The notes under the pieces are model-generated. The model was not told where the DNA came from, ran no database searches, and was given only the letters and a program-made list of their open reading frames with translations. A stretch of DNA of 40,155 bases from an uncultured Caryophanales bacterium (lineage in GTDB: Bacteria; Bacillota_I; Bacilli_A; RF39; UBA660), in the NCBI GenBank assembly GCA_947089915.1, contig CAMUMB010000007.1, positions 1-40,155 on the forward strand, read 5' to 3'. A program made the position numbers and the translations under genes. Shown here in pieces: positions 5,521 to 33,651 of this stretch. The first letter of the stretch is position 1, and every line of letters starts with the position of its first letter.

Positions 5521-6390
5521 TTGAAAAAATTTTATAATGGGTGTTATGACATCGTATTTAAAACAGTTATCTGTGATGAGAATAACCCCCATATGTTAAA
5601 AACATTCTTAGAGCATATTTTGAAAATAGAAATAGATGAAATAGAGTTTCTACAGAATGAACTCTCTGTAAGTGATGTAGGGGAACGAAAGAAAACAGTA
5701 GATTTATTAGTAAAGCCGAAGAATAAATACATTCATATTGAATTAAATCAAAGTCATAAGAATTATCTTCATATTCGGAACTTTTGTTTCTTTACCAATT
5801 TATATTCCAAAAATACAAGAAAAGGAAAAGAATTTGATTTAACAAGTGAATTTGTGCATATTGATTTATCCTATGGTAAAAAAGATGAGTTAGAAAAAAG
5901 AACCTATTATGTAATGGATAAAGATGGCTATTTGTATATAGAAAATATGAAAATCATAGAGTACAATATGGACAGGATAACCGATTTTTGGTATTCTAAA
6001 AACAAAGAGAAGATAGAAGAATACAAATATCTTATTATGTTAGGACTTGATAGAATATCACTCAATGAAATAGCCAAAGGAGACAAATATATGGAAGAAT
6101 ATACAAAGAAAGTAGAAGAATTGAATGATAGAGATGCATTTACCAGTTGGATTACTCCAGAAGAAGATGCAGAGATGATACTCAATACGGAAAAGCACAT
6201 TTCCTATGATGAAGGAAAAAACGAAGGAATAGATATTGGAATGGGGCGTGGAATTGATATTGGATTAGAACAGGGAATGAAACAGGAAAAGGGAATAATT
6301 GCTAGGAACTTATTAAAAGTGGGTTTAGATATCAAAGTTATTATGGATGCAACAGGACTTTCTAAAGAACAAATTGAAGAACTGAAATAA
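5521..6390 (+). CDS. Rpn family recombination-promoting nuclease / putative transposase (PD-(D/E)XK)
   Basis: A 289-residue protein of the PDDEXK_2/Rpn type. The candidate nuclease core is Asp61 (KKTVDLL) followed by Glu74-Leu-Asn76 (YIHIELNQ) after a beta hairpin. The C-terminal third holds Gly-rich repeats (EGIDIGMGRGIDIGLEQG) and ends in a helix, KVIMDATGLSKEQIEEL, typical of the family. Rpn proteins promote RecA-independent DNA exchange in E. coli; the role here is inferred. The start is TTG at 5521, 5 nt after GAGGTGATT. A second copy with a nonsense codon lies at 25827-26684. The two share an upstream segment of about 40 bp and a 335-bp tract without mismatches. Confidence 0.85.
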   Translation: MKKFYNGCYDIVFKTVICDENNPHMLKTFLEHILKIEIDEIEFLQNELSVSDVGERKKTVDLLVKPKNKYIHIELNQSHKNYLHIRNFCFFTNLYSKNTRKGKEFDLTSEFVHIDLSYGKKDELEKRTYYVMDKDGYLYIENMKIIEYNMDRITDFWYSKNKEKIEEYKYLIMLGLDRISLNEIAKGDKYMEEYTKKVEELNDRDAFTSWITPEEDAEMILNTEKHISYDEGKNEGIDIGMGRGIDIGLEQGMKQEKGIIARNLLKVGLDIKVIMDATGLSKEQIEELK

Positions 6391-14377: not shown

Positions 14378-15532
14378 ATGAAGAAGATTGTAACATTATG
14401 TATTTGTTTTGGGTTACTACTATCTATAAATTTGGTAAAAGCGGATACAGATTTAGCGCCTAATGCGAAAAGTGCGATTTTGATAGAAGCAAGTACAGGA
14501 AAAATTATATATGAAAAAAATAGTCATGAAAAATTAGCTCCAGCTTCTATGACCAAAATGATGAGTATGCTTGTGATTGTAGAAAGTATTGAAAAGGGTA
14601 TTATCGGTTGGGATGATATGGTAACTGCATCTGAAAATGCATCCAAAATGGGTGGTAGTCAGATTTTATTAGAAACAGGAGAGCAAATGAGTGTATCCGA
14701 TTTGTTTAAAGGTGTTGCGGTTGCTTCTGGGAATGATGCTGTGGTTGCTCTTGCAGAAGCAATTGCCGGTACAGAAGACGAATTTGTGAATATGATGAAC
14801 CAAAGAGCAAAGGAACTAGGTTTAACAGATACAGTTTTTAAAAATCCACATGGATTAGATGATGCAAATCATTATTCAAGTGCATACGATATGATGTTGA
14901 TTGCAAAAGAGTTAGTAAAACATGAGAGAGTATTAGAATATACTTCCATTTATGAAGATTATTTAAGAAAGGGAACTTCTAAAGAATTGTGGCTTGTCAA
15001 TACGAATAAATTAACGCGTTTTTATCCTGGGGTTGATGGTTTAAAGACAGGATATACAGATACCGCTGGATATTGTTTAACCGCTACTGCTAAAAAGAAT
15101 GGAATGCGCTTAATTGCAGTCGCTATGGGAGAAGCAGATGGTAAGGTACGAAATGCAGAAGTAACTTCTATGTTGGATTATGGGTTTGCTCAATATAAAG
15201 TAAATGAAATATTAAATACTAGTACTATTATTTCTAAAGTAGAAATTGAGAAGGGAAAAGAAAAACAAGTGGAATTAGTGCCATTACAAAATGCAACAGT
15301 AGTAACGCGGAAAACAGAAACACTTGGGAAAATTACTTATGACTTACACCTAAATGCTGTAAAAGCACCAGTTAAAGTTGGAGATAAGGTAGGAACACTT
15401 GATATATTAGAAAATGGTAATAAAATTGATCAAATTGATGTGACTGTAAAAGAGAATGTCAAAAAGGCTAATTTTTTCGATTTATTTCTTCGTTATTTTG
15501 GTGATATGCTAAGTGGAGCAATTCAAATATAA
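14378..15532 (+). CDS. dacF: D-alanyl-D-alanine carboxypeptidase, DacF/PBP5 type
   Basis: A 384-residue serine DD-carboxypeptidase. A signal peptide ends near residue 22. The three penicilloyl-enzyme motifs are Ser57-x-x-Lys60 (PASMTKMM), Ser117-Gly-Asn119 and Lys223-Thr-Gly225. A PBP5 C-terminal beta domain (about 275-355) and a terminal amphipathic helix that would hold it to the membrane follow. In B. subtilis dacF is the forespore gene directly before spoIIAA. Here the same order holds, but a pilin-like gene and a lipoprotein are inserted between them, with a terminator after dacF. I therefore call it DacF, although DacA-like paralogues have the same domains. Confidence 0.88.
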   Translation: MKKIVTLCICFGLLLSINLVKADTDLAPNAKSAILIEASTGKIIYEKNSHEKLAPASMTKMMSMLVIVESIEKGIIGWDDMVTASENASKMGGSQILLETGEQMSVSDLFKGVAVASGNDAVVALAEAIAGTEDEFVNMMNQRAKELGLTDTVFKNPHGLDDANHYSSAYDMMLIAKELVKHERVLEYTSIYEDYLRKGTSKELWLVNTNKLTRFYPGVDGLKTGYTDTAGYCLTATAKKNGMRLIAVAMGEADGKVRNAEVTSMLDYGFAQYKVNEILNTSTIISKVEIEKGKEKQVELVPLQNATVVTRKTETLGKITYDLHLNAVKAPVKVGDKVGTLDILENGNKIDQIDVTVKENVKKANFFDLFLRYFGDMLSGAIQI

Positions 15533-15638: not shown

Positions 15639-15741
15639 ATCAGAATGAATCATAGAAAAATAGTTTACGAGTAGAATATACACAAGTTGACTATTTGTAA
15701 ACGGAGGGGTTATATTCTCTTTTATATTATAGGAAGGAATG
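15639..15741 (+). promoter_or_regulatory. Structured 5' leader of the pilin-like gene
   Basis: The leader contains mutually exclusive pairings: 15658-15663 with 15691-15696, 15663-15668 with 15697-15702, and 15673-15680 with 15711-15718. These could form alternative structures near the ribosome-binding site. I do not recognise a known riboswitch; the c-di-GMP aptamer consensus is not present. Confidence 0.35.
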
Positions 15742-15747
15742 ATGTAC

Positions 15748-17679
15748 ATGAAAAGAAAAGGATTTACGTTAATAGAATTATTAGCAGTAATTGTAATACT
15801 AGCAGTAATTGCTCTAATCGCAACGCCAATGATTATGGATGTGATTGAAAAGTCTAGAATGGGAGCATTTAAAGATAGTGTGTTAAGTGCATTTCATCAG
15901 GTGGATTACTATTTAGTAGAAAATGAGTTAGGACAGGTCCCAGAAGAAGGGTTGGACGTTACTAAGATAGGACTTCAAAAGAGTCAATTTAAGTATGGTG
16001 AATTCTATCAAAGAGAAGAATTAGAAGTTGTAAATATAAGTGATGGAAGATTTTGTGCAATCGGAGGAATGGAAAATCTACAAGTATTTAAAGGAGAATG
16101 TGATTTCACTACACCAAGATGTGAATTAAGAATAGAGGGAGAAAAGGGAGTAGGTGAATGGTATAATAAAAATCCAAAGGTAGTGATGGAAACAAGTGAA
16201 GCATTAACAGGCGGACTTACTTTTGGAATCGGTAAAACAGAAAACTATAATAATGAAGTAAAGCAAGGAAATATAGGAAAAGCTGAATATCAAACAACAG
16301 AGACTACAACAACAAGAGTTTATTGTTATGTCAAAAATGTGGGAGATAATAGGGGAAGTAATTATATTGATGTGAAAATTGATCAAACATTCCTAGAAGA
16401 AGCAACATTTAGTTATACAACAACAAGTAAGAGTATAAGAGTGATTGCAAGTGGAAAAGACCAACAAAGTGGGATTACAAGGTATCAATTTAGTAAAGAT
16501 AATGGAGTAACATGGAGTGAAATACAACAAAGTAATAGCTATAAATTTGATAACCTACAGACAGGCGAATACCCAATAAAAGTAAGAGTATATAATGGAA
16601 CATATGTAGATAGTTTAAAAGAAAATAATCTATATAAAGAAAGTGAAACAAAAGTAGTAAAAACAGAGGATTTAATTGCTCCAACTTATGAAGTGAATCC
16701 AAAAGGATGGACTACTGGAGATGTAAAAGTAACCATAAAATATGGAGATCAAGGAACAAAACTATTGAAAACGACAGTAAATGTAACAAGTAATTTAAGT
16801 GCAACAAGATGTAGCAATGTGTATAATGGAACATATACGTGTGATGGAGAAAGCACTAAGAATATAGAAGCAGGAGTCTGGTATTTAGTAGATTCCGATG
16901 TAGAACTTACATATGGTGAAAATGGAAGTGTAATTGCACAAGTAGTTGATGGTGTCAATTATAAAAGTGGAAGTAGTATAGTAATTGGTACAATTGATAA
17001 GGTAGATCCATCAGTTTATGTCGAAGTTAATAAAAAAATTGCAACATTTACATTAGAGGATAATTCTGAATTAGTAGGGTATTCAGTTATGTCTCAAATG
17101 GAATTACCAGACGATTGGGTACCTATAAGTGGGAAGCAATCAATTGTGACATGGGAGGCTAGTCAAGCAGGAATATACTATGTATATGTAAAGGATATTG
17201 CTGGAAGAATATCTTATGCAACATTTGAAATGGCACAAACTTCTTTCTCTTATGAAGCTACAAAATCAACATATGCAGCAACGGATATTGGGCATAAGCA
17301 TACGGGAAATAGAAACTCTGGGGGAGGATGTTATACAGTTCAAAAACAGTCATGTCAAACTTGTACTATTACAACAGTAGAATTGTCAACATCAATTAAT
17401 TCGGATGGAACGTATAATTGGATTCGTTCTACGAGACATTCTAGATGTGGCCAAGCGAACTCAGATTCATCCATTGGTAGAAGGAATTATTCTGGAAGCA
17501 ATCAAGTTGGGTCATCATCACATTCTTATGGTTGTTCCACTTATTATGAATTAGGTTGTGGAAAATCAGAAACAACTGTTTATACATGCCCAAATGGTGG
17601 TACTTTAAATGGAACTACTTGTACATTATATACATGTCCAAATGGCGGAACTTTAAGCGGAACAATTTGTGATTATTAA
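15748..17679 (+). CDS. Large type IV pilin-like / pseudopilin protein with Cys-rich C-terminus
   Basis: A 643-residue protein with a textbook class III prepilin signal: KRKGFTLIELLAV, cleavage after Gly, Glu at mature position 5 and a long hydrophobic helix. The mature part is far larger than a normal pilin. It contains beta-rich segments resembling Ig-like repeats (two regions with ITRYQFSKDNGVTW and GIYYVYVKDIAGR patterns) and a Cys-rich tail (about 530-643) ending in two copies of YTCPNGGTLxGTxC. No prepilin peptidase or assembly ATPase lies in the window. Start chosen at ATG 15748, which begins the usual MKRKGFTL; ATG codons at 15739 and 15742 are alternatives nearer GGAAGGA. It lies between dacF and spoIIAA, but no spore role is shown. 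Confidence 0.8.
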   Translation: MKRKGFTLIELLAVIVILAVIALIATPMIMDVIEKSRMGAFKDSVLSAFHQVDYYLVENELGQVPEEGLDVTKIGLQKSQFKYGEFYQREELEVVNISDGRFCAIGGMENLQVFKGECDFTTPRCELRIEGEKGVGEWYNKNPKVVMETSEALTGGLTFGIGKTENYNNEVKQGNIGKAEYQTTETTTTRVYCYVKNVGDNRGSNYIDVKIDQTFLEEATFSYTTTSKSIRVIASGKDQQSGITRYQFSKDNGVTWSEIQQSNSYKFDNLQTGEYPIKVRVYNGTYVDSLKENNLYKESETKVVKTEDLIAPTYEVNPKGWTTGDVKVTIKYGDQGTKLLKTTVNVTSNLSATRCSNVYNGTYTCDGESTKNIEAGVWYLVDSDVELTYGENGSVIAQVVDGVNYKSGSSIVIGTIDKVDPSVYVEVNKKIATFTLEDNSELVGYSVMSQMELPDDWVPISGKQSIVTWEASQAGIYYVYVKDIAGRISYATFEMAQTSFSYEATKSTYAATDIGHKHTGNRNSGGGCYTVQKQSCQTCTITTVELSTSINSDGTYNWIRSTRHSRCGQANSDSSIGRRNYSGSNQVGSSSHSYGCSTYYELGCGKSETTVYTCPNGGTLNGTTCTLYTCPNGGTLSGTICDY

Positions 17680-17692
17680 AAGGAGAATGTCT

Positions 17693-18085
17693 ATGGGAAA
17701 AACAATATATGTCATTATAATAATACTTTGTACAATAGTAACAACAACAGGTTGTGGAAAGAGAATAGAGCCTGAGGAAAATAGTAAAACGAATACATCC
17801 GCAAGTGTATTCCAAGATCAAATCGTAGAGACATTTGAATTTACTAATACATCACTTATATATGAAGAGGGAAAAACAAAATTGCAAACAACGGTAACCA
17901 ATATAAGTGGCAAGAACTCCTATTTATCAGAGTTTAAAATCCATGTTAAAGTTGAAAATGAAATAATAGATTTGATTGGATTTGTGGGAGAAGAGTTGCA
18001 ACCAAAAGAAAGTCGAGTCATAATGAGCTATAGTATAGAGGATTTAACAAATGCTTCTTCTATCTCTTATGAAGTTGTCCGATAA
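17693..18085 (+). CDS. Putative lipoprotein
   Basis: A 130-residue exported protein. Residues 1-21 form a hydrophobic signal ending TTTGC, a plausible though atypical lipobox with Cys21 lipidated. The mature region starts with a polar linker and continues as a beta-rich domain (FEFTNTSLIYEEGKTKLQTT then TNISGKNSYL) like small FxLYD-type extracellular modules. Start ATG 17693 follows AAAGGAG. It is 13 nt after the pilin-like gene and ends in a terminator, so the two form an operon and the lipoprotein may help its neighbour at the cell surface (inference). Confidence 0.7.
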   Translation: MGKTIYVIIIILCTIVTTTGCGKRIEPEENSKTNTSASVFQDQIVETFEFTNTSLIYEEGKTKLQTTVTNISGKNSYLSEFKIHVKVENEIIDLIGFVGEELQPKESRVIMSYSIEDLTNASSISYEVVR

Positions 18086-18107
18086 GTAAGCATAGCTTAC
18101 TTTTTTT
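18085..18107 (+). terminator. Terminator after the lipoprotein gene
   Basis: AGTAAGC pairs with GCTTACT over a 3-nt loop, followed by T7. It separates the pilin unit from spoIIAA. Confidence 0.85.
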
Positions 18108-18135
18108 GCAAATAAATTCTAATATATTCTAGTTT

Positions 18136-18142
18136 TGTCGAA
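18136..18142 (+). promoter_or_regulatory. Candidate Spo0A box upstream of spoIIAA
   Basis: TGTCGAA, an exact 0A-box core in the context TTTTGTCGAAAT. It lies about 28 nt before TG-c-TAAAGT (18167-18175), which could serve as a -10 element. In Bacillus the spoIIA operon is activated by Spo0A~P with sigma-H. The 7-mer alone is not rare in 40 kb of A+T-rich DNA, so position is the main support. Confidence 0.45.
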
Positions 18143-18193
18143 ATGATTTTCAGTTCATTTTGTTTGTGCTAAAGTAAAATAGCGAGGTGAAAT

Positions 18194-18541
18194 ATGTTAG
18201 AAACAACATTAGAATTTCGAAAGGGGATTTTATTTGTAAGACTAAATGGAGAGTTGTCAAAAACAACAACAAGTATTTTACAAATAGAAGTAACGGATAC
18301 CATTTTGCAAAATGGAATTCAAAATGTAGTATTCAATATGGATCATTTAAAAAGCATTGATATGAAAGGAATGAGTTCGTTATTATATCATTATGAAATT
18401 TGTAAAAATAGAAAAGGCAATTGTTATATCTGTAACATTTCTGATGAGTGGGTGTATATGAAACTCAAAAAGAATAGAATTTTAAACTACTTACATGAAA
18501 TGGATAATGAATTAACTATTCTGCAAGCTGTTACTGTATAG
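18194..18541 (+). CDS. spoIIAA: SpoIIAA-like anti-anti-sigma factor (STAS domain) without the phosphorylatable Ser
   Basis: A 115-residue single STAS domain, the size of SpoIIAA (about 117 residues). In canonical SpoIIAA the kinase/anti-sigma SpoIIAB phosphorylates the Ser of the D-S-S-G-L-G loop, and the unphosphorylated form frees sigma-F. Here the loop after the NVVFNMDHLKSID strand reads Asp56-Met57-Lys58-Gly59-Met60-Ser61. Met57 therefore occupies the phosphoacceptor position and Lys58 the next Ser. The gene is 9 nt before sigF, with no spoIIAB between. It has a good ribosome-binding site (GAGGTG) and an intact frame. The call rests on fold, size and position between dacF and sigF/spoVA. 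It may bind sigma-F or another partner directly. Confidence 0.8.
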   Translation: MLETTLEFRKGILFVRLNGELSKTTTSILQIEVTDTILQNGIQNVVFNMDHLKSIDMKGMSSLLYHYEICKNRKGNCYICNISDEWVYMKLKKNRILNYLHEMDNELTILQAVTV

Positions 18542-18550
18542 GAGGAAAGT

Positions 18551-19204
18551 ATGACAAATGAAATGATTACAATGTATGATAATTATATTTATTACATTAT
18601 TTCTAAATATTATAGCGGATATCCAAGCAAAGAAGACTTATTTCAAGTAGGTAGAATTGGTCTTTTGAATGCCTATAGTAAATATGATTCATCTTATGGA
18701 GTCCAATTTAAGACATATGCATTTGAATTTATTAAAGGAGAAATGTCTAAATTTATTAGACAAGATCGCCCTGCTAAATATAGTCGTAATGTTACTAAGT
18801 TAAAATACTTGATTGAAAAAACAACTGCAATTATGACACAAGAATTGATGCGTGCTCCAACTGTAAGTGAACTTGCTAGTTATCTAGGGGAACCAGAAGA
18901 AAATATTATAGAAGCGATGCAAACTATTTATCATATGCAAAGTATTCAATCACCAATTATGCAAGATGAAAAAGAAATTACATTAGAGGATAATATTGCA
19001 TCACAACAGGTCGATATAGATACTATGATAGCCTTTAGAGACTCTTTACAATCTTTATCTCCATTTGAACAAGAATTGATTAAAAGAAGGTATGTTTATG
19101 GTCAGACACAATCTGAAATCGCAGAATATATGGGAATTAATCAGGTACAAGTCTCTAGAAAAGTAAAAAAAATTGGTGAAAAAATCCACCAAAATGTTGC
19201 CTAA
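18551..19204 (+). CDS. sigF: Sporulation sigma factor, sigma-F type
   Basis: A 217-residue sigma-70 factor of the SigB/F/G group that would direct the first forespore-specific transcription. Region 2 contains SKEDLFQVGRIGLLNAYSKYD and FKTYAFEFIKGEM; region 3 APTVSELASYLG; region 4 is a clear HTH, YGQTQSEIAEYMGINQVQVSRK. It is shorter than B. subtilis sigma-F (255) mainly at the N-terminus, starting directly in region 2. Its place after spoIIAA and before spoVA genes favours sigma-F over sigma-G. Start ATG follows TAGGAGGAAAG, overlapping the spoIIAA stop. With spoIIAB missing, its anti-sigma control is unexplained. Confidence 0.85.
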   Translation: MTNEMITMYDNYIYYIISKYYSGYPSKEDLFQVGRIGLLNAYSKYDSSYGVQFKTYAFEFIKGEMSKFIRQDRPAKYSRNVTKLKYLIEKTTAIMTQELMRAPTVSELASYLGEPEENIIEAMQTIYHMQSIQSPIMQDEKEITLEDNIASQQVDIDTMIAFRDSLQSLSPFEQELIKRRYVYGQTQSEIAEYMGINQVQVSRKVKKIGEKIHQNVA

Positions 19205-19229
19205 AAGAACAAATTGTTCTTTTTCTTTT
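19203..19229. terminator. Bidirectional terminator between sigF and the converging gene
   Basis: AAAAGAAC pairs with GTTCTTTT over a 5-nt loop, with T-rich tail on the plus strand and A-rich flank serving the minus strand. Confidence 0.7.
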
Positions 19230-19902
19230 ATATAGATTTTCCTTTATTTGAAAAAGAAGTTTCATTTGATAATATATTGTTTTGTCTTGTTTCAATATAG
19301 GATTTGATGAAAGGGTAAAGAAAAGGGTCTATGTATCTTTTCGTTTGTTCCAGTAAAAGTTTGCTGCTTCTCCAAGTCAATCTGCTTATGATATCTTCTT
19401 TATCTATATCTTTTTCTTCTACCATTATTAGAGGATTTATCTTTTTTTTATTTTTTATTGTTACAAGCTTTTCTTTTTCTAAAAAATTTTTAAAGATAGT
19501 ATCCATATAGCGCTTCATCGCTTGTTCATACTCACCCATCGGTGTTAATGAAATTGCCCCATTTTCTATTTTATAATCATAAAATCTACCACTTATGTAA
19601 ATATGATTTGGAATAACTAATTTTTCTTCAATTGGAATACAGTAGTATTCTAAAATAAAATGATATGGTTTTTTATTTTGTAAAACTTGTTGTTTGATTT
19701 CGTTTTCTGTTAAAACAATTCTATATTGTATATGACATGGCATATTCACTGTCCTTGGTAGATACTTTTCTAGAGTAGGAATAATCTCTTCAATTGTAAA
19801 TCCAGCCTGTTTTTTCCAATATTCTGCAATTTCTGATGTAAACTCTGGAAAATCTTTTTTGTATTGTTCTATTTTTTCTCTCTCTAAATCATAATTAAAC
19901 AT
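19228..19902 (-). CDS. Hypothetical protein inside the sporulation island
   Basis: A 224-residue soluble protein that I do not recognise. It is charged and mixed alpha/beta, with no signal peptide, membrane segment, Cys pair or nucleotide-binding motif. The N-terminal 45 residues (EREKIEQYKKDFPEFTSEIA) look helical; the centre is beta-rich with HFILEYYCIP; the C-terminus is polar and Ser/Asn-rich. It has its own ribosome-binding site (AAGGGGA) and is convergent with sigF and divergent from spoVAC. Its location between sigF and spoVA makes a spore-related role possible, but nothing in the sequence proves it. Confidence 0.7.
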   Translation of the reverse strand: MFNYDLEREKIEQYKKDFPEFTSEIAEYWKKQAGFTIEEIIPTLEKYLPRTVNMPCHIQYRIVLTENEIKQQVLQNKKPYHFILEYYCIPIEEKLVIPNHIYISGRFYDYKIENGAISLTPMGEYEQAMKRYMDTIFKNFLEKEKLVTIKNKKKINPLIMVEEKDIDKEDIISRLTWRSSKLLLEQTKRYIDPFLYPFIKSYIETRQNNILSNETSFSNKGKSI

Positions 19903-19963
19903 AGTATTCCCCTTTTCATTTAAGCTATTATACTTTATTTTGCAAGGAAGTCAAGTTCAAAAA

Positions 19964-19993
19964 TGTATAAAAAAAAACTTTATTTCCATAATA
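19964..19993 (+). promoter_or_regulatory. Candidate forespore (sigma-F/sigma-G) promoter for spoVA
   Basis: TGTATA at 19964-19969, 17-nt spacer and CATAATA at 19987-19993, close to the sigma-G consensus TGAATA-N17/18-CATACTA. The implied leader would be only about 10 nt, with the start near the AGGAGG, which is unusually short. Confidence 0.45.
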
Positions 19994-20010
19994 ATCCTAG
20001 GAGGAAAAAC

Positions 20011-20457
20011 ATGGAAAAAAATAAATATAATGATTTGGTTACAAAATATACACCAAAAGAGAATCGATTAAAGAATGGTTTACTTGCCTTTTTTATCGGT
20101 GGAATCATGGGTGTAATTGGAGAATTTTTAGTAGAAATATGGTCCTATTATTTAAATATTCCAACGAAAGAAGCGGGAACATTTATGATTATTACACTTA
20201 TTTTTGCTGGGTGTCTACTTACCTGTTTTGGATTTTTTGATAAGTGGGTCAATTTTGCGAAAGCTGGGTTATTTGTTCCGATTACTGGCTTTGCGCATGC
20301 GATGATGAGTGCCGCTTTGGAATATCGAAAAGAAGGCTTTGTTACTGGATTAGGTGCTAGTATGTTTAAATTATCTGGTTCTGTTATTATATTTGGAGTT
20401 GTAAGCGCTTATGTATTTGGTTTGATACGAATTCTTTTATTTGGAGGGCAAATATGA
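20011..20457 (+). CDS. spoVAC: Stage V sporulation protein AC
   Basis: A 148-residue membrane protein of the SpoVA channel that moves Ca-dipicolinate into the forespore and releases it in germination; SpoVAC is reported as a mechanosensitive component. Four to five membrane segments are visible, with the family segments LLAFFIGGIMGVIGEF, VPITGFAHAMMSAALEY and GLGASMFKLSGSVI. I start at ATG 20011, 6 nt after a perfect AGGAGG; an upstream in-frame ATG at 19963 would add 16 basic residues and has no ribosome-binding site. The stop overlaps spoVAD. Confidence 0.93.
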   Translation: MEKNKYNDLVTKYTPKENRLKNGLLAFFIGGIMGVIGEFLVEIWSYYLNIPTKEAGTFMIITLIFAGCLLTCFGFFDKWVNFAKAGLFVPITGFAHAMMSAALEYRKEGFVTGLGASMFKLSGSVIIFGVVSAYVFGLIRILLFGGQI

Positions 20458-21443
20458 CATTTCAATATAAAAACGTATATATTAATGAAACTGCTACCGT
20501 AACTGGTCCTTATGAAAAAAAAGGACCATTAAGCCACTATTTTGACAAAAGTCATGATGAGTTTTATTTTGGAACAAAGACATGGGAGAATGCAGAAAGT
20601 AAGTTGATTGAAGAAAGTGTTGATATTTTGCTTACTAAAAAAGGGTGTACGAAATTTGATATTGATTTATTCATTTCAGGTGATTTACTCAATCAAACTG
20701 TAGCTTCTAACTATGCTGCAAGTCATTTGGGAATTCCTTTTATGGGCGTTTATAATGCGTGTGCAACAAGTGTAGAAGGATTGATCTTGGGTGCTAATAT
20801 GGTGGAAGCAAAGCAGATTCAAAATTGTATCTGTGACGCTTCTTCTCATAATAATGCAGCAGAAAAACAATTTCGTTATCCTGTTGAGTATGGTGGACCA
20901 AAACCGAAAACGACGACATTTACTACAACTGGATGTGCAAGTGCCTATTTGAGTAGTGAAAAGTCGGGTATTCGAGTTGAAAGTGCGACAGTTGGGACCG
21001 TAACGGATATGGGAATTAAGGATGCCTATCATATGGGAGCTGTTATGGCGCCTGCCTGTGCAGATACCATTTATCGTCATTTGATGGATACCAAAAGAGA
21101 GATTGGATATTATGATCTGGTTTTAAGTGGGGATTTGGGTGTTTATGGTGAGAATATCTTAAAAGATTATATGAAAACAGAATATGGAATTACATTAGAA
21201 AATTATGATGACACGGCCACAATGATTTTTGATGTGGAAAGTCAACCTGTATATGCAGGTGGAAGTGGACCAGCATGTGCTCCTTTGGTTACTTATAGTT
21301 ATATTTTTGATCAAATGAAAAAGAAAGAATATAAGAAAGTTTTACTTGTAGCAACGGGTGCTTTAATGTCTACTACAATGGTGAATGAGAAAATGAGTAT
21401 TCCAAGTATTGCACATGCAATTAGTTTGGAGGTTACCCTATGA
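20454..21443 (+). CDS. spoVAD: Stage V sporulation protein AD
   Basis: A 329-residue soluble partner of the SpoVA channel with a thiolase fold that binds dipicolinic acid in Bacillus. Recognisable segments include ETATVTGPYEKKGPLSHYFD at the N-terminus, the NACATSVEG loop at mid-protein and VLLVATGALMSTTMVNE near the C-terminus. Length is close to the 338 residues of B. subtilis. It overlaps spoVAC (ATGA) and spoVAE (ATGA), so the three are translationally coupled. No spoVAA, spoVAB or spoVAF is present. Confidence 0.95.
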   Translation: MTFQYKNVYINETATVTGPYEKKGPLSHYFDKSHDEFYFGTKTWENAESKLIEESVDILLTKKGCTKFDIDLFISGDLLNQTVASNYAASHLGIPFMGVYNACATSVEGLILGANMVEAKQIQNCICDASSHNNAAEKQFRYPVEYGGPKPKTTTFTTTGCASAYLSSEKSGIRVESATVGTVTDMGIKDAYHMGAVMAPACADTIYRHLMDTKREIGYYDLVLSGDLGVYGENILKDYMKTEYGITLENYDDTATMIFDVESQPVYAGGSGPACAPLVTYSYIFDQMKKKEYKKVLLVATGALMSTTMVNEKMSIPSIAHAISLEVTL

Positions 21444-21790
21444 TTTATATCAATGCTTTCCTTTTTGCAGGGTTGGTTTGCTTATTAGGACAAATTATAT
21501 TAGATAATACGAAATTGACTGCAGGTCATGTTACCACCATTTTTGTGGTATTAGGTGCATTTCTAGATATTTTTAGTATTTATGATAAATTTGTATTATG
21601 GGCCGGTGGAGGTGCTTTGGTTCCAATTACGAGTTTTGGGCATTTGTTGATTCATGGCGCATTAGAAAAAGCCCAAGATTTTGGTCTCATTGGACTTGCA
21701 ATGGGTATGTTTGACTTAACATCATCTGGTATTATTTCAGCAATTGTTATTTCTTTCTTCTTATCTCTTATTTTTCAGCCAAAAGATTAA
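21440..21790 (+). CDS. spoVAE: Stage V sporulation protein AE (SpoVAEb type)
   Basis: A 116-residue hydrophobic protein with three to four membrane helices and the family segments GQIILDNTKLTAGH and LVPITSFGHLLIHGA. Together with SpoVAC and SpoVAD it makes the minimal C-D-Eb set conserved in most spore formers. Its sequence resembles SpoVAC in the central VPIT-FGH motif, as is usual for this pair. It ends in a terminator, so the spoVA unit has three genes. Confidence 0.93.
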   Translation: MIYINAFLFAGLVCLLGQIILDNTKLTAGHVTTIFVVLGAFLDIFSIYDKFVLWAGGGALVPITSFGHLLIHGALEKAQDFGLIGLAMGMFDLTSSGIISAIVISFFLSLIFQPKD

Positions 21791-25826: not shown

Positions 25827-26684
25827 TTGAAAAAATTTTATAATGGATGTTATGACATCATATTTAAAACAGTTATCTGTGATGAGAATAATCCTCATAT
25901 GCTAAAAACCTTCCTAGAACATATTCTGAAAATAGAAATAGATGAAATAGAGTTTCTACAGAATGAACTGAGTGTAAGTGATGTGAATGAACGAAAGAAA
26001 ACAGTAGACTTACTTGTGAGAACAAAGGATAGATACATTCATATTGAGTTAAATCAAAGCCATAAAGGTTATCTCCATATTCGGAATTTCTGTTTCTTTA
26101 CCAATCTATATTCCAAAAATACATGAAAAGGAAAAGAATTTGATTTAACAAGTGAATTTGTGCATATTGATTTATCCTATGGTAAAAAAGATGAGTTAGA
26201 AAAAAGAACCTATTATGTAATGGATAAAGATGGCTATTTGTATATAGAAAATATGAAAATCATAGAGTACAATATGGACAGGATAACCGATTTTTGGTAT
26301 TCTAAAAACAAAGAGAAGATAGAAGAATACAAATATCTTATTATGTTAGGACTTGATAGAATATCACTCAATGAAATAGCCAAAGGAGACAAATATATGG
26401 AAGAATATACAAAGAAAGTAGAAGAATTGAATGATAGAGATGCATTTACCAGTTGGATTACCCCAGAAGAAGATGTAGAGATGATACTCAACACGGAAAA
26501 GCACATTTCTTATGATGAGGGACACACTGTTGGATATGGAGAAGGAAAGAGTGAAGGAATCGATATTGGATTAGAACAGGGAAAATTAAACGAGAAATTA
26601 GAAATTACTAGAAACATGTTAAAGAAAAATATCGATATTTCAATGATTTCTGAAATAATATGTTTTACGAAAGAGCAGATATAA
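25827..26684 (+). pseudogene. Rpn family nuclease/transposase, interrupted by a nonsense codon
   Basis: A second copy of the gene at 5521-6390, with the same TTG start and the same 40-bp upstream segment. Codon 100 is TGA (26124-26126) where the intact copy has AGA, so only 99 residues would be made, enough to include the candidate nuclease Asp and Glu but not the rest of the domain. The frame remains open for the remaining 174 codons after the stop, which indicates a recent event. The first 300 nt differ from the other copy at about 36 positions; the 335 nt just after codon 100 are identical; the Gly-rich 3' end differs again. Confidence 0.85.
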
Positions 26685-31006: not shown

Positions 31007-32023
31007 ATGAAAGATATAAAATCTAGAAAATATTTTATAAGAGTTTGTCAAGAAAACCATACGGTTGAAGATGGTATTGTTACATATAATTTTAATGAAA
31101 TATATGAGAAACTATGTTCTAAATATGATAAAGTAATGTATATTATTCATGATAAGGATCCTAAAAATATTCATGCTCATTTTATCGTTCAAAATCATGC
31201 ACAAATTAGAAAAAGCACCTTAATAAATTTAATTAAATATTGTGATATCCAAAAACAAAGAGGTTCTAATTTGCAATGTTATGAATATTTACAACATAAG
31301 GGCATAGAGAATAAAGAGCCATATGATAAAATGAATATAAAGTGTAATTTTCCTAATGAGCTAGAAATTTGGTTAAAAGAAATTAATGAAAGTGAAAGCA
31401 ACTATCAAAAAATGATTAATGCTTTGTATAGTGGAAGTACACCAGAGGAAATAATGATAAATTATCCAAAAGAGTACTTTACTCACAGAAACAAAATACA
31501 TACAATTTATAGTGATTTAAATTTAAAAAAGGCAACTGAAAGTTGGAGAGATATACAGGTTTTCTATATATGGGGCGATAGTAGAACAGGAAAAACAAGA
31601 AGTGTTATCGAGTATTGTAAAAATAACAATATCCCATACTATAGAGTTACAGAGTATGAAAAGGATCCGTTTCAAAATTATACATGTGAACCATGTCTAA
31701 TATTAGATGAATATAGAGAAAATTTTCCAGTATCAAGTTTATTAACGTATCTAGATGGGTACGAAAAAACATTTCTATCATCAAGATATTCAAATAAATA
31801 TGCATTATATAATACAGTGTTTATTATATCTAATATTCCATTATCCCAACAATATACTCATTGTGATGAAAAAACAAGAATGGCTATCAAGAATAGAATA
31901 AAATATGAACTTAAATATACAGAAACTGAAATTGTCATATTAGAGAAAAATGTAGTAATAAAAATAATTCCCAATCCATATTATTCTAATAAATTGGGAA
32001 AGGAAAATATAAATGAAAAATAA
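31007..32023 (+). CDS. CRESS-type replication initiator (HUH endonuclease plus SF3 helicase)
   Basis: A 338-residue Rep that would nick the origin and unwind DNA for rolling-circle replication. The N-terminal HUH domain has motif II His56-Ala-His58-Phe-Ile-Val-Gln62 and a candidate catalytic Tyr94 in EYLQHKG, a form seen in plasmid Rep_2/pCRESS proteins. The helicase domain has Walker A GDSRTGKT (190-197), Walker B CLILDEYR (230-237) and motif C FIISN (272-276). This two-domain design is shared by eukaryotic CRESS-DNA viruses and bacterial pCRESS plasmids. The ribosome-binding site AAGGAG lies in a small hairpin. Its end overlaps a 34-codon ORF. Confidence 0.88.
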   Translation: MKDIKSRKYFIRVCQENHTVEDGIVTYNFNEIYEKLCSKYDKVMYIIHDKDPKNIHAHFIVQNHAQIRKSTLINLIKYCDIQKQRGSNLQCYEYLQHKGIENKEPYDKMNIKCNFPNELEIWLKEINESESNYQKMINALYSGSTPEEIMINYPKEYFTHRNKIHTIYSDLNLKKATESWRDIQVFYIWGDSRTGKTRSVIEYCKNNNIPYYRVTEYEKDPFQNYTCEPCLILDEYRENFPVSSLLTYLDGYEKTFLSSRYSNKYALYNTVFIISNIPLSQQYTHCDEKTRMAIKNRIKYELKYTETEIVILEKNVVIKIIPNPYYSNKLGKENINEK

Positions 32024-32117
32024 TAAAATTGTGATAAAAAATATCTATTATGACAACAAAAATACTATCACTGATTTAATTATTGCTTATTTGAAAGAAA
32101 AAGCTTATAATACATAG
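32013..32117 (+). CDS. 34-residue ORF between rep and the recombinase
   Basis: A short frame starting inside the last codons of rep (11-nt overlap, other frame) after GGGAAAGGA. It encodes a basic then helical peptide (DLIIAYLKEKAYNT at its end). It ends 28 nt before the recombinase start. Coupling to rep and location in an otherwise packed element support expression. Function unknown; it may be an accessory of the recombinase. Confidence 0.5.
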   Translation: MKNNKIVIKNIYYDNKNTITDLIIAYLKEKAYNT

Positions 32118-32145
32118 CATATGTATGCCTTTAAAAGGAGGAAAA

Positions 32146-33651
32146 GTGAACAAAGGTATAGATGTAGTTCTTTATATAAGATTGTCTGATGAAGACGAGC
32201 AAAAAGAAAACAATAATGAAAGTGAAAGTATCACTAATCAAAGAAAAGTCTTAACTGATTTTGCAAAGGAACGTAATTTTAATATTGTAAATGAATATAT
32301 AGATGACGGATACACAGGTCTATCATTTGATAGACCTGGTTGGAATAAGTTAATAGATGATATTGAAAAGGGTTCAATACAATGTATTTTAGTTAAAGAT
32401 TTTTCAAGATTAGGTAGAGAAAATTCTAAATTTTTGTATTATATTCAAAACTATTTTCCTACACACAATGTGAGAATTATTGCAGTTAATGAAAATTATG
32501 ATAGTGATGTTAATTTTGATGAGGATATTATTCCATTCAAAGCTGTTTTAAATGATTTATATAGTAAAGATATATCAAGAAAGGTCAGATCAACCTTAAA
32601 ATCAAAAATGAAAAATGGAGAATATGTTGGTAGTAGACCACCATATGGATATCTTAAAGACCCAAAGAATAAAAATAAATTAATTGTAGACCCATACGCG
32701 AGTATCATTGTTAAAAGAATTTTTAGTGAATTTTTAAATGGAAAAAACATGTCTATGATTGCCAAGAATTTAACACTTGATAACATTGATGTACCGTCAT
32801 ATTATAATAGTAAAGCATTTGATATGAAACCAAAAGAGAATATATGGAAAGCACAAACAATAAAATATATACTGACTAATGAAATGTATACTGGTTGTTT
32901 AGTACAAGGAAAGGTAGAAAATCTATCCTACAAAATTGGCAAACAAATGCGGAAAAGTAAAAATGATTGGGTTAAGTTTAAAAATGCCCATGAAGCTATT
33001 ATTGATAGTAATACATATCAGCAAGTACAACTTCTTTTCCAAACGAAAACACATTCAATTGTTAACAATAGTTACTTATTAACTGGTCTATTAAGGTGTA
33101 AAGAATGCGGAACATCATTGTGCATCTATAGTTCCACTAAAAAGCCATATATAAATTGCAAAACATATTTTCTAACACATAGAATGACATGTCATTCTCA
33201 TAGTATGAATTATTATGAACTTGAAAAACTTATATTAGATGAAACAAAAAATGCATTGAAAACAAGAATTATTGATTATGACACCATAAATGAAAGTCTT
33301 AATCTTAGCACTGATAAAATATTAAAAGAAATTGATGAAATAAAAAAACAAATACAAGATTTGGAAAGTAAATTAAAACTAATCTATGAGGATAGAATTA
33401 ATCAAATTATTAGCTTAGAAGATTATCAAAATTATTGTAAGGAATATAAAGAAAAAATAGAAAATAAAAATAATGAAATATTAGCCTTAAATGAACAATT
33501 AAAAGACATTCAAAATGATTTTACTTATGATGAATTAGTAAAAAGTATTCTAGAATTAGAACAACCAGATAAATTGTTAATGAAAAAGTTAATAAAAAAG
33601 GTTGTAATTGATAAAAATAAAGAGGTAGAAATATATTTTAATTTTTGTTAG
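32146..33651 (+). CDS. Large serine recombinase
   Basis: A 501-residue site-specific recombinase that would integrate and excise the element. The N-terminal catalytic domain has the nucleophile Ser in YIRLSDED, the arginine-containing DFSRLGRE and DDGYTGLSFDRPGW. A recombinase domain (about 165-290) follows, with PPYGYLKDP, then a zinc ribbon with LLRCKECGTSLC and a second Cys pair, and a long coiled coil (about 380-460). I choose GTG 32146, 3 nt after AAAGGAGGAAA, over ATG 32125, which has no ribosome-binding site. The coiled coil and zinc ribbon are typical of TnpX/phage integrase-type large serine recombinases. Confidence 0.93.
   Translation: MNKGIDVVLYIRLSDEDEQKENNNESESITNQRKVLTDFAKERNFNIVNEYIDDGYTGLSFDRPGWNKLIDDIEKGSIQCILVKDFSRLGRENSKFLYYIQNYFPTHNVRIIAVNENYDSDVNFDEDIIPFKAVLNDLYSKDISRKVRSTLKSKMKNGEYVGSRPPYGYLKDPKNKNKLIVDPYASIIVKRIFSEFLNGKNMSMIAKNLTLDNIDVPSYYNSKAFDMKPKENIWKAQTIKYILTNEMYTGCLVQGKVENLSYKIGKQMRKSKNDWVKFKNAHEAIIDSNTYQQVQLLFQTKTHSIVNNSYLLTGLLRCKECGTSLCIYSSTKKPYINCKTYFLTHRMTCHSHSMNYYELEKLILDETKNALKTRIIDYDTINESLNLSTDKILKEIDEIKKQIQDLESKLKLIYEDRINQIISLEDYQNYCKEYKEKIENKNNEILALNEQLKDIQNDFTYDELVKSILELEQPDKLLMKKLIKKVVIDKNKEVEIYFNFC

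Follow-up and report, generated by a model that had tools for sequence, protein, structure and literature searches.

In Bacillus subtilis the SpoIIAA/SpoIIAB/SpoIIE switch is the textbook route to unlike daughter cells and is usually held to be essential for endospores, and spoIIA is transcribed with sigma-H. This SpoIIAA-SpoIIAB-sigma-F/SpoIIE switch (PDB 1TH8, 1THN, 1TID and 1TIL) is the closest described relative of the locus reported here, which has a STAS gene at the spoIIAA position before sigF and whose STAS product has the SpoIIAA fold. Unlike B. subtilis, the locus has no kinase, phosphatase or phospho-Ser, has lost F55, S58, G62, R67 and G95, and carries a sigma-F with a shortened N-terminus. 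For the order RF39, one sentence in a published survey (PMC10868615, Microb Genom 2024) gives spoIIAB and spoIIE as reduced or absent and spoIIGA as present; the survey, which offers KEGG-level counts only, predicts RF39 spores with different regulation, and SpoIIAA has 0 occurrences in its main text. Neither that account, as its main text gives it, nor any other that we found in the open-access literature, to which our search was confined, describes the Ser-less SpoIIAA (altered at Ser58), the STAS-sigF pair, the conserved Spo0A box or the loss of STAS. That RF39 has reduced or no spoIIAB and spoIIE is already known, and the remainder appears to be new.

We analysed a window of 40,155 nt, the whole stretch of DNA under study, which is an entire contig (C7) of a metagenome-assembled genome (MAG) of 1.27 Mb in 79 contigs. 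The features of the locus are as follows.

14378-15532, plus strand: dacF-like D,D-carboxypeptidase gene, a neighbour without adjacency (HMM scans)
18084-18102, plus strand: intrinsic-terminator-like hairpin and T run, ending the upstream transcription unit (terminator scan)
18133-18142, plus strand: Spo0A box TTTTGTCGAA, with the core TGTCGAA at 18136-18142 (motif conservation)
18165-18175, plus strand: extended -10-like element TGTGCTAAAGT of a putative promoter (alignment of 70 upstream regions)
18184-18189, plus strand: ribosome binding site GAGGTG (sequence)
18194-18541, plus strand: Ser-less SpoIIAA-like STAS gene, 115 aa (ORF list, HMM scans, profile and fold matches)
18359-18370, plus strand: former phosphorylation loop D56-M57-K58-G59, in B. 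subtilis D57-S58-S59-G60 (alignment)
18551-19204, plus strand: sigF, 217 aa, N-terminus shortened, conserved regions 2, 3 and 4 present (HMM scans)
19963-20457, plus strand: spoVAC, neighbour (TIGR02838, 168 bits, above the cut-off)
20454-21443, plus strand: spoVAD, neighbour (HMM scans)
21440-21790, plus strand: spoVAE-type gene, neighbour (HMM scans)

The STAS gene and sigF lie on the same strand, 9 nt apart, and spoIIAB would not fit between them; the ORF coordinates are those claimed in the first-pass annotation, which had noted this spacing. Alignment with B. subtilis SpoIIAA agrees with its placement of Met57 at the phospho-Ser58 column, and the N-terminal shortening it described for the sigma factor is seen in a start near residue 33 of B. 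subtilis SigF, as in most family members (sister families, 1-14). Its description of the gene order as classical does not hold in full: two ORFs (15739-17679 and 17669-18085) separate the dacF-like gene from the STAS gene, and sigF is separated from spoVAC by an ORF on the minus strand (19228-19902). The first of these encodes 646 aa, with an N-terminus (GFTLIELLAVIVIL) that resembles type IV prepilins and a C-terminus rich in Cys, and at locus L010 sigF is followed by a large prepilin-like ORF. Elsewhere in the window, 5521-6390 and 25827-26684 form a near-identical pair of PD-(D/E)XK/transposase-like genes, the second copy split into two frames, and at 31007-33651 a gene for a Rep-like protein precedes one for a large serine recombinase, as in a mobile element (both pairs named by eye).

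The STAS protein scored 48.6 bits against Pfam STAS and 43.2 bits against the SpoIIAA model TIGR02886, whose curated cut-off is 114.75. A sequence profile matched it to SpoIIAA (E 4.8e-20), and the solved structure nearest to its model (pLDDT 96.2, pTM 0.89) was SpoIIAA in the SpoIIAA-SpoIIAB complex (TM 0.90, E 3.5e-11). Its closest fold and its gene's position upstream of sigF in the operon place the protein with SpoIIAA, whereas it falls below the TIGR02886 cut-off and lacks the column-58 Ser, the docking residues and a cognate SpoIIAB kinase. The sigF product has regions 2, 3 and 4 of the SigF/SigG/SigB sigma factors and matches that group below the cut-off (TIGR02980, 164 bits); against TIGR02885 it reached 155.5 bits, the curated cut-off being 321.45.

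Our survey of the window's family covered 193 genomes from 148 genera, MAGs of about 90% completeness that sample the family, which on the sigF tree and PMC10868615 is very probably the GTDB order RF39. The sigF tree gives 98% support to the split between the family and the seven sequences taken from sister families. The STAS profile matched 138 of the 193 genomes and the SigF/SigG-type profile 169. The first-pass annotation had reported spoIIAB missing, and no stand-alone copy was found in the window's genome or its relatives: in the former, the only matches were frames of histidine-kinase size and one protein of GyrB size, all far below the cut-off, and a PF13581 (HATPase_c_2) profile search of the 193 genomes returned above the cut-off only proteins of histidine-kinase or GyrB/HSP90 size, apart from three Rsb-type modules, which account for the three strong matches, and one 146-aa frame (in G032) right at the cut-off. 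With the SpoIIAB model TIGR01925, 49 of 247 genomes in the class gave a match; these belong to nine other families, and none of the matches listed comes from the window's family. The sister families keep the classical spoIIA operon. A move of SpoIIAB to another place in the genome is ruled out by these genome-wide and family-wide searches. The SpoIIE phosphatase domain occurs in 6/193 genomes, three of the six being the Rsb-type modules, and Fin, the other known anti-sigma-F factor, gave no match above the cut-off in the family search. The Rsb-type modules (L074 in G126, L075 in G149 and L076 in G210), each a PP2C phosphatase with a HATPase kinase, fused or adjacent, are the sole partner-switch-like kits seen in the family, and the G149 module has next to it a STAS gene that keeps the Ser (YISSAGL).

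The STAS-sigF pair itself is widespread. All 82 unselected STAS loci had sigF on the same strand at -23 to +60 nt, and among 80 named MAG contigs 77 had it at -26 to +88 nt, one had metK inserted and two had no sigF match in the stretch examined. Overlapping junctions of ATGA type are frequent. Assembly collapse, which the first-pass annotation had named as an artefact that could mimic the short junction, is excluded because the same junction recurs in dozens of independent MAGs. Beside sigF, conservation extends to spoVAC/D (44/77 loci) and one secreted-protein family (30/77), with nothing else widespread. This secreted or surface protein, of at least about 430 aa, ends about 68 nt 5' of the STAS gene in many genera (e.g. 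L099:1173-3032).

Column 58, the site of the phospho-Ser, is Ser in 29/29 sister-family SpoIIAA proteins, compared with Ser or Thr in 11/82 unselected family STAS proteins, which have E, N, M, S, K, L, Q and others there. The expectation that Met/Lys would be conserved failed, as few columns of the 82 proteins vary more, and this free variation rules out Met/Lys as a fixed replacement of Ser58. Six positions (F55, D57, S58, G62, R67 and G95) are invariant in the 29 classical sister-family proteins, and only D57 stays in the 82 family members; R67 is part of both the SpoIIE and the SpoIIAB interfaces (PMC11418112). On these alignments, the residues predicted to dock SpoIIAB and SpoIIE are shown to have decayed in the family and to be conserved in the sister families.

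Other positions of the family STAS proteins are newly conserved, namely E7, F/Y8, K/R10, G11, F14, R16, G19, C80 and E106, and the family has gained an EFRKGILFVRL signature. The pattern EFRKG had been used to find the 80-locus set, and conservation was therefore judged on the 82 unselected loci. The codons of the conserved residues vary freely at synonymous sites; the constraint thus acts on the protein, and an RNA-level cause of the conserved N-terminal stretch is ruled out. Between the two closest genomes dN/dS was 0.022/0.278 = 0.08 for STAS and 0.043/0.384 = 0.11 for SigF (values for distant pairs were saturated and left unused). Judged by these ratios and the structure model, the STAS protein is under purifying selection and its predicted fold is kept. 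The window's genome also has a second Ser-less STAS paralog of about 79 aa (G000:C11:5244-5483, minus strand, locus L065), with relatives at L066-L073; the paralog is directly 5' of yqfC-yqfD-like genes in L066, L067 and L069-L071 and divergent from a murT/gatD-like pair in most of its loci (genes named by eye).

Upstream of the STAS gene, where 2 terminator-like sites were found and 0.4 expected in the region, the Spo0A box at 18133-18142 is the only exact match to its sequence in the window. The core TGTCGAA lies within 200 nt upstream of STAS in 70/81 loci, with 1.2 expected from shuffles, and in 2/395 control upstream regions from the same contigs; the box is nearly always about 58 nt 5' of the STAS start and recurs in 54/60 of an independent set. 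The extended -10-like element that follows has the family consensus TGcTAAAtT, and its hexamer comes 34 nt after the first base of the core. In 18 of 21 STAS-less genomes the box stands upstream of sigF itself, mostly 53-91 nt away. A box at a fixed promoter place and a Spo0A gene in the genome both point to a Spo0A-controlled operon, in which binding and activation are predicted. The arrangement resembles the Spo0A/sigma-A promoters of B. subtilis spoIIG/spoIIE type, in which a -10-like element likewise follows the Spo0A box at about 34 nt, and differs from them in that the predicted promoter precedes STAS-sigF. Among the ways in which the first-pass annotation had thought sigma-F might be gated, the conserved box favours transcriptional control. 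B. subtilis spoIIA has Spo0A boxes as well as the partner switch, and 17/29 sister-family operons with SpoIIAB also carry the box; therefore, the box alone is no replacement for the switch. The sister-family operons make an ancestral Spo0A input probable, the change being the loss of everything after it. In terms of gene content, SpoIIAB, the SpoIIE phosphatase and the target residue are shown to have gone together, with the STAS fold, the operon and the Spo0A box kept; the proposal that kinase and target residue were lost as a unit is supported.

We consider it likely that the switch was dismantled in the ancestor of the family, that Spo0A-driven transcription gates sigma-F and that the Ser-less STAS protein is an accessory. 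This ancestor would have lost SpoIIAB, both kinase and anti-sigma, along with the phosphatase SpoIIE, and kept the sporulation programme (Spo0A, sigma-F, SpoIIR, SpoIIGA and SpoVA). Spo0A~P-activated transcription would be the main on-switch of sigma-F, which would therefore be active once made, with no anti-sigma/anti-anti-sigma step, and would still drive spoIIR from a forespore-type promoter. The SpoIIR-SpoIIGA-sigma-E signal would then act as the cell-type checkpoint, and the STAS protein would be kept as a non-phosphorylated accessory. In B. subtilis, sigma-F without SpoIIAB acts in the wrong cell, and transcription alone therefore leaves forespore confinement unexplained.

The surrounding programme is largely in place. 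Spo0A (Spo0A_C) was found in 177/193 genomes, and SpoIIR and SpoIIGA, which the first-pass annotation had singled out along with spoIIE, in 166/193 and 163/193; all three are in the window's genome, and with SigF they are retained in 84-92% of family genomes. A SigH-like protein was found below the cut-off. Upstream of spoIIR, the pattern TG[TA]ATA-N15-18-CANNA, a motif chosen after viewing the sequences, occurs in 18/20 relatives (L284-L303), with 0.16 expected. The B. subtilis sigma-F -10 element GGnnAnAnT preceded spoIIR in 0/20 and is ruled out there. The motif has a sigma-F/sigma-G-like layout and perhaps reflects a shifted promoter preference of sigma-F. Given this motif and the retention of SpoIIR and SpoIIGA, the signal to sigma-E is probably intact.

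The Ser-less STAS protein could instead bind directly to sigma-F or to RNA polymerase through a new surface around its N-terminal hairpin (E7-F8-R9-K10-G11, F14 and R16), serving as a co-factor or as a one-step anti-sigma. A former anti-anti-sigma stripped of kinase and phosphosite would then have come to regulate sigma-F directly and without phosphorylation, and forespore fate would be set without SpoIIAB or SpoIIE, an idea we think rather doubtful. It draws on the predicted co-transcription with sigF, often across overlapping junctions, and on the intact fold, the strong purifying selection and a new signature conserved as protein. However, a single-chain model of STAS and sigma-F, with the TAG read through, gave pTM 0.39 and no confident placement, which is a weak test. 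In 21 of the genomes sampled, moreover, sigF stays but has no STAS gene next to it. These genomes are scattered so as to require at least 13 state changes on a quick tree, many of whose branches are weak; no sigma-F column was relaxed in these lineages (familywise p 0.7). On these three results the first-pass suggestion of STAS as a direct sigma-F ligand, taken as obligatory, is so far unsupported.

We regard it as unlikely that an unrelated or unrecognised anti-sigma encoded elsewhere took over from SpoIIAB. Forespore confinement of sigma-F is needed in all studied systems, and the family has many small proteins without a name. Yet Fin is absent, and no neighbour of sigF other than spoVAC/D and the secreted-protein family is widely conserved. 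Moreover, sigma-F E149, which we align with sigma-G E156, lies at a position that is E in 13/18 sister proteins and in the window but mostly Y, E or F in the family. As E156 is a SpoIIAB-sensitivity site in sigma-G (PMC3174212), the loss of conservation at this position also argues against a replacement.

We think it very unlikely that these bacteria have stopped forming spores and carry the STAS gene, with the rest of the sporulation set, as a relic. About 10-15% of the family lacks sigF, SpoIIR and SpoIIGA altogether, and a machine-learning study scores its sampled RF39 MAGs as non-sporulating (PMC12536801), but STAS and SigF are under purifying selection, the Spo0A box and the putative spoIIR promoters are conserved, and SpoIIR, SpoIIGA, SigF and Spo0A are jointly retained in most genomes. 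It is extremely improbable that SpoIIAB was missed through an assembly gap or, as the first-pass annotation had envisaged, moved with a second Ser-bearing SpoIIAA, for although the genomes are incomplete MAGs and a second STAS gene exists, that gene is Ser-less with no kinase adjoining, and SpoIIAB is absent from all family genomes searched by a method that matches it in other families of the class.

A family with sigma-F, SpoIIR and SpoIIGA that lacks the switch suggests that the switch is dispensable over evolutionary time. Its genomes form a natural deletion series, with no kinase, a Ser-less STAS or no STAS at all, that bears on the minimum needed to confine the first forespore sigma factor. 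Where a pipeline treats spoIIAB as universal among sporulation genes, such gut bacteria may be scored as non-sporulating.
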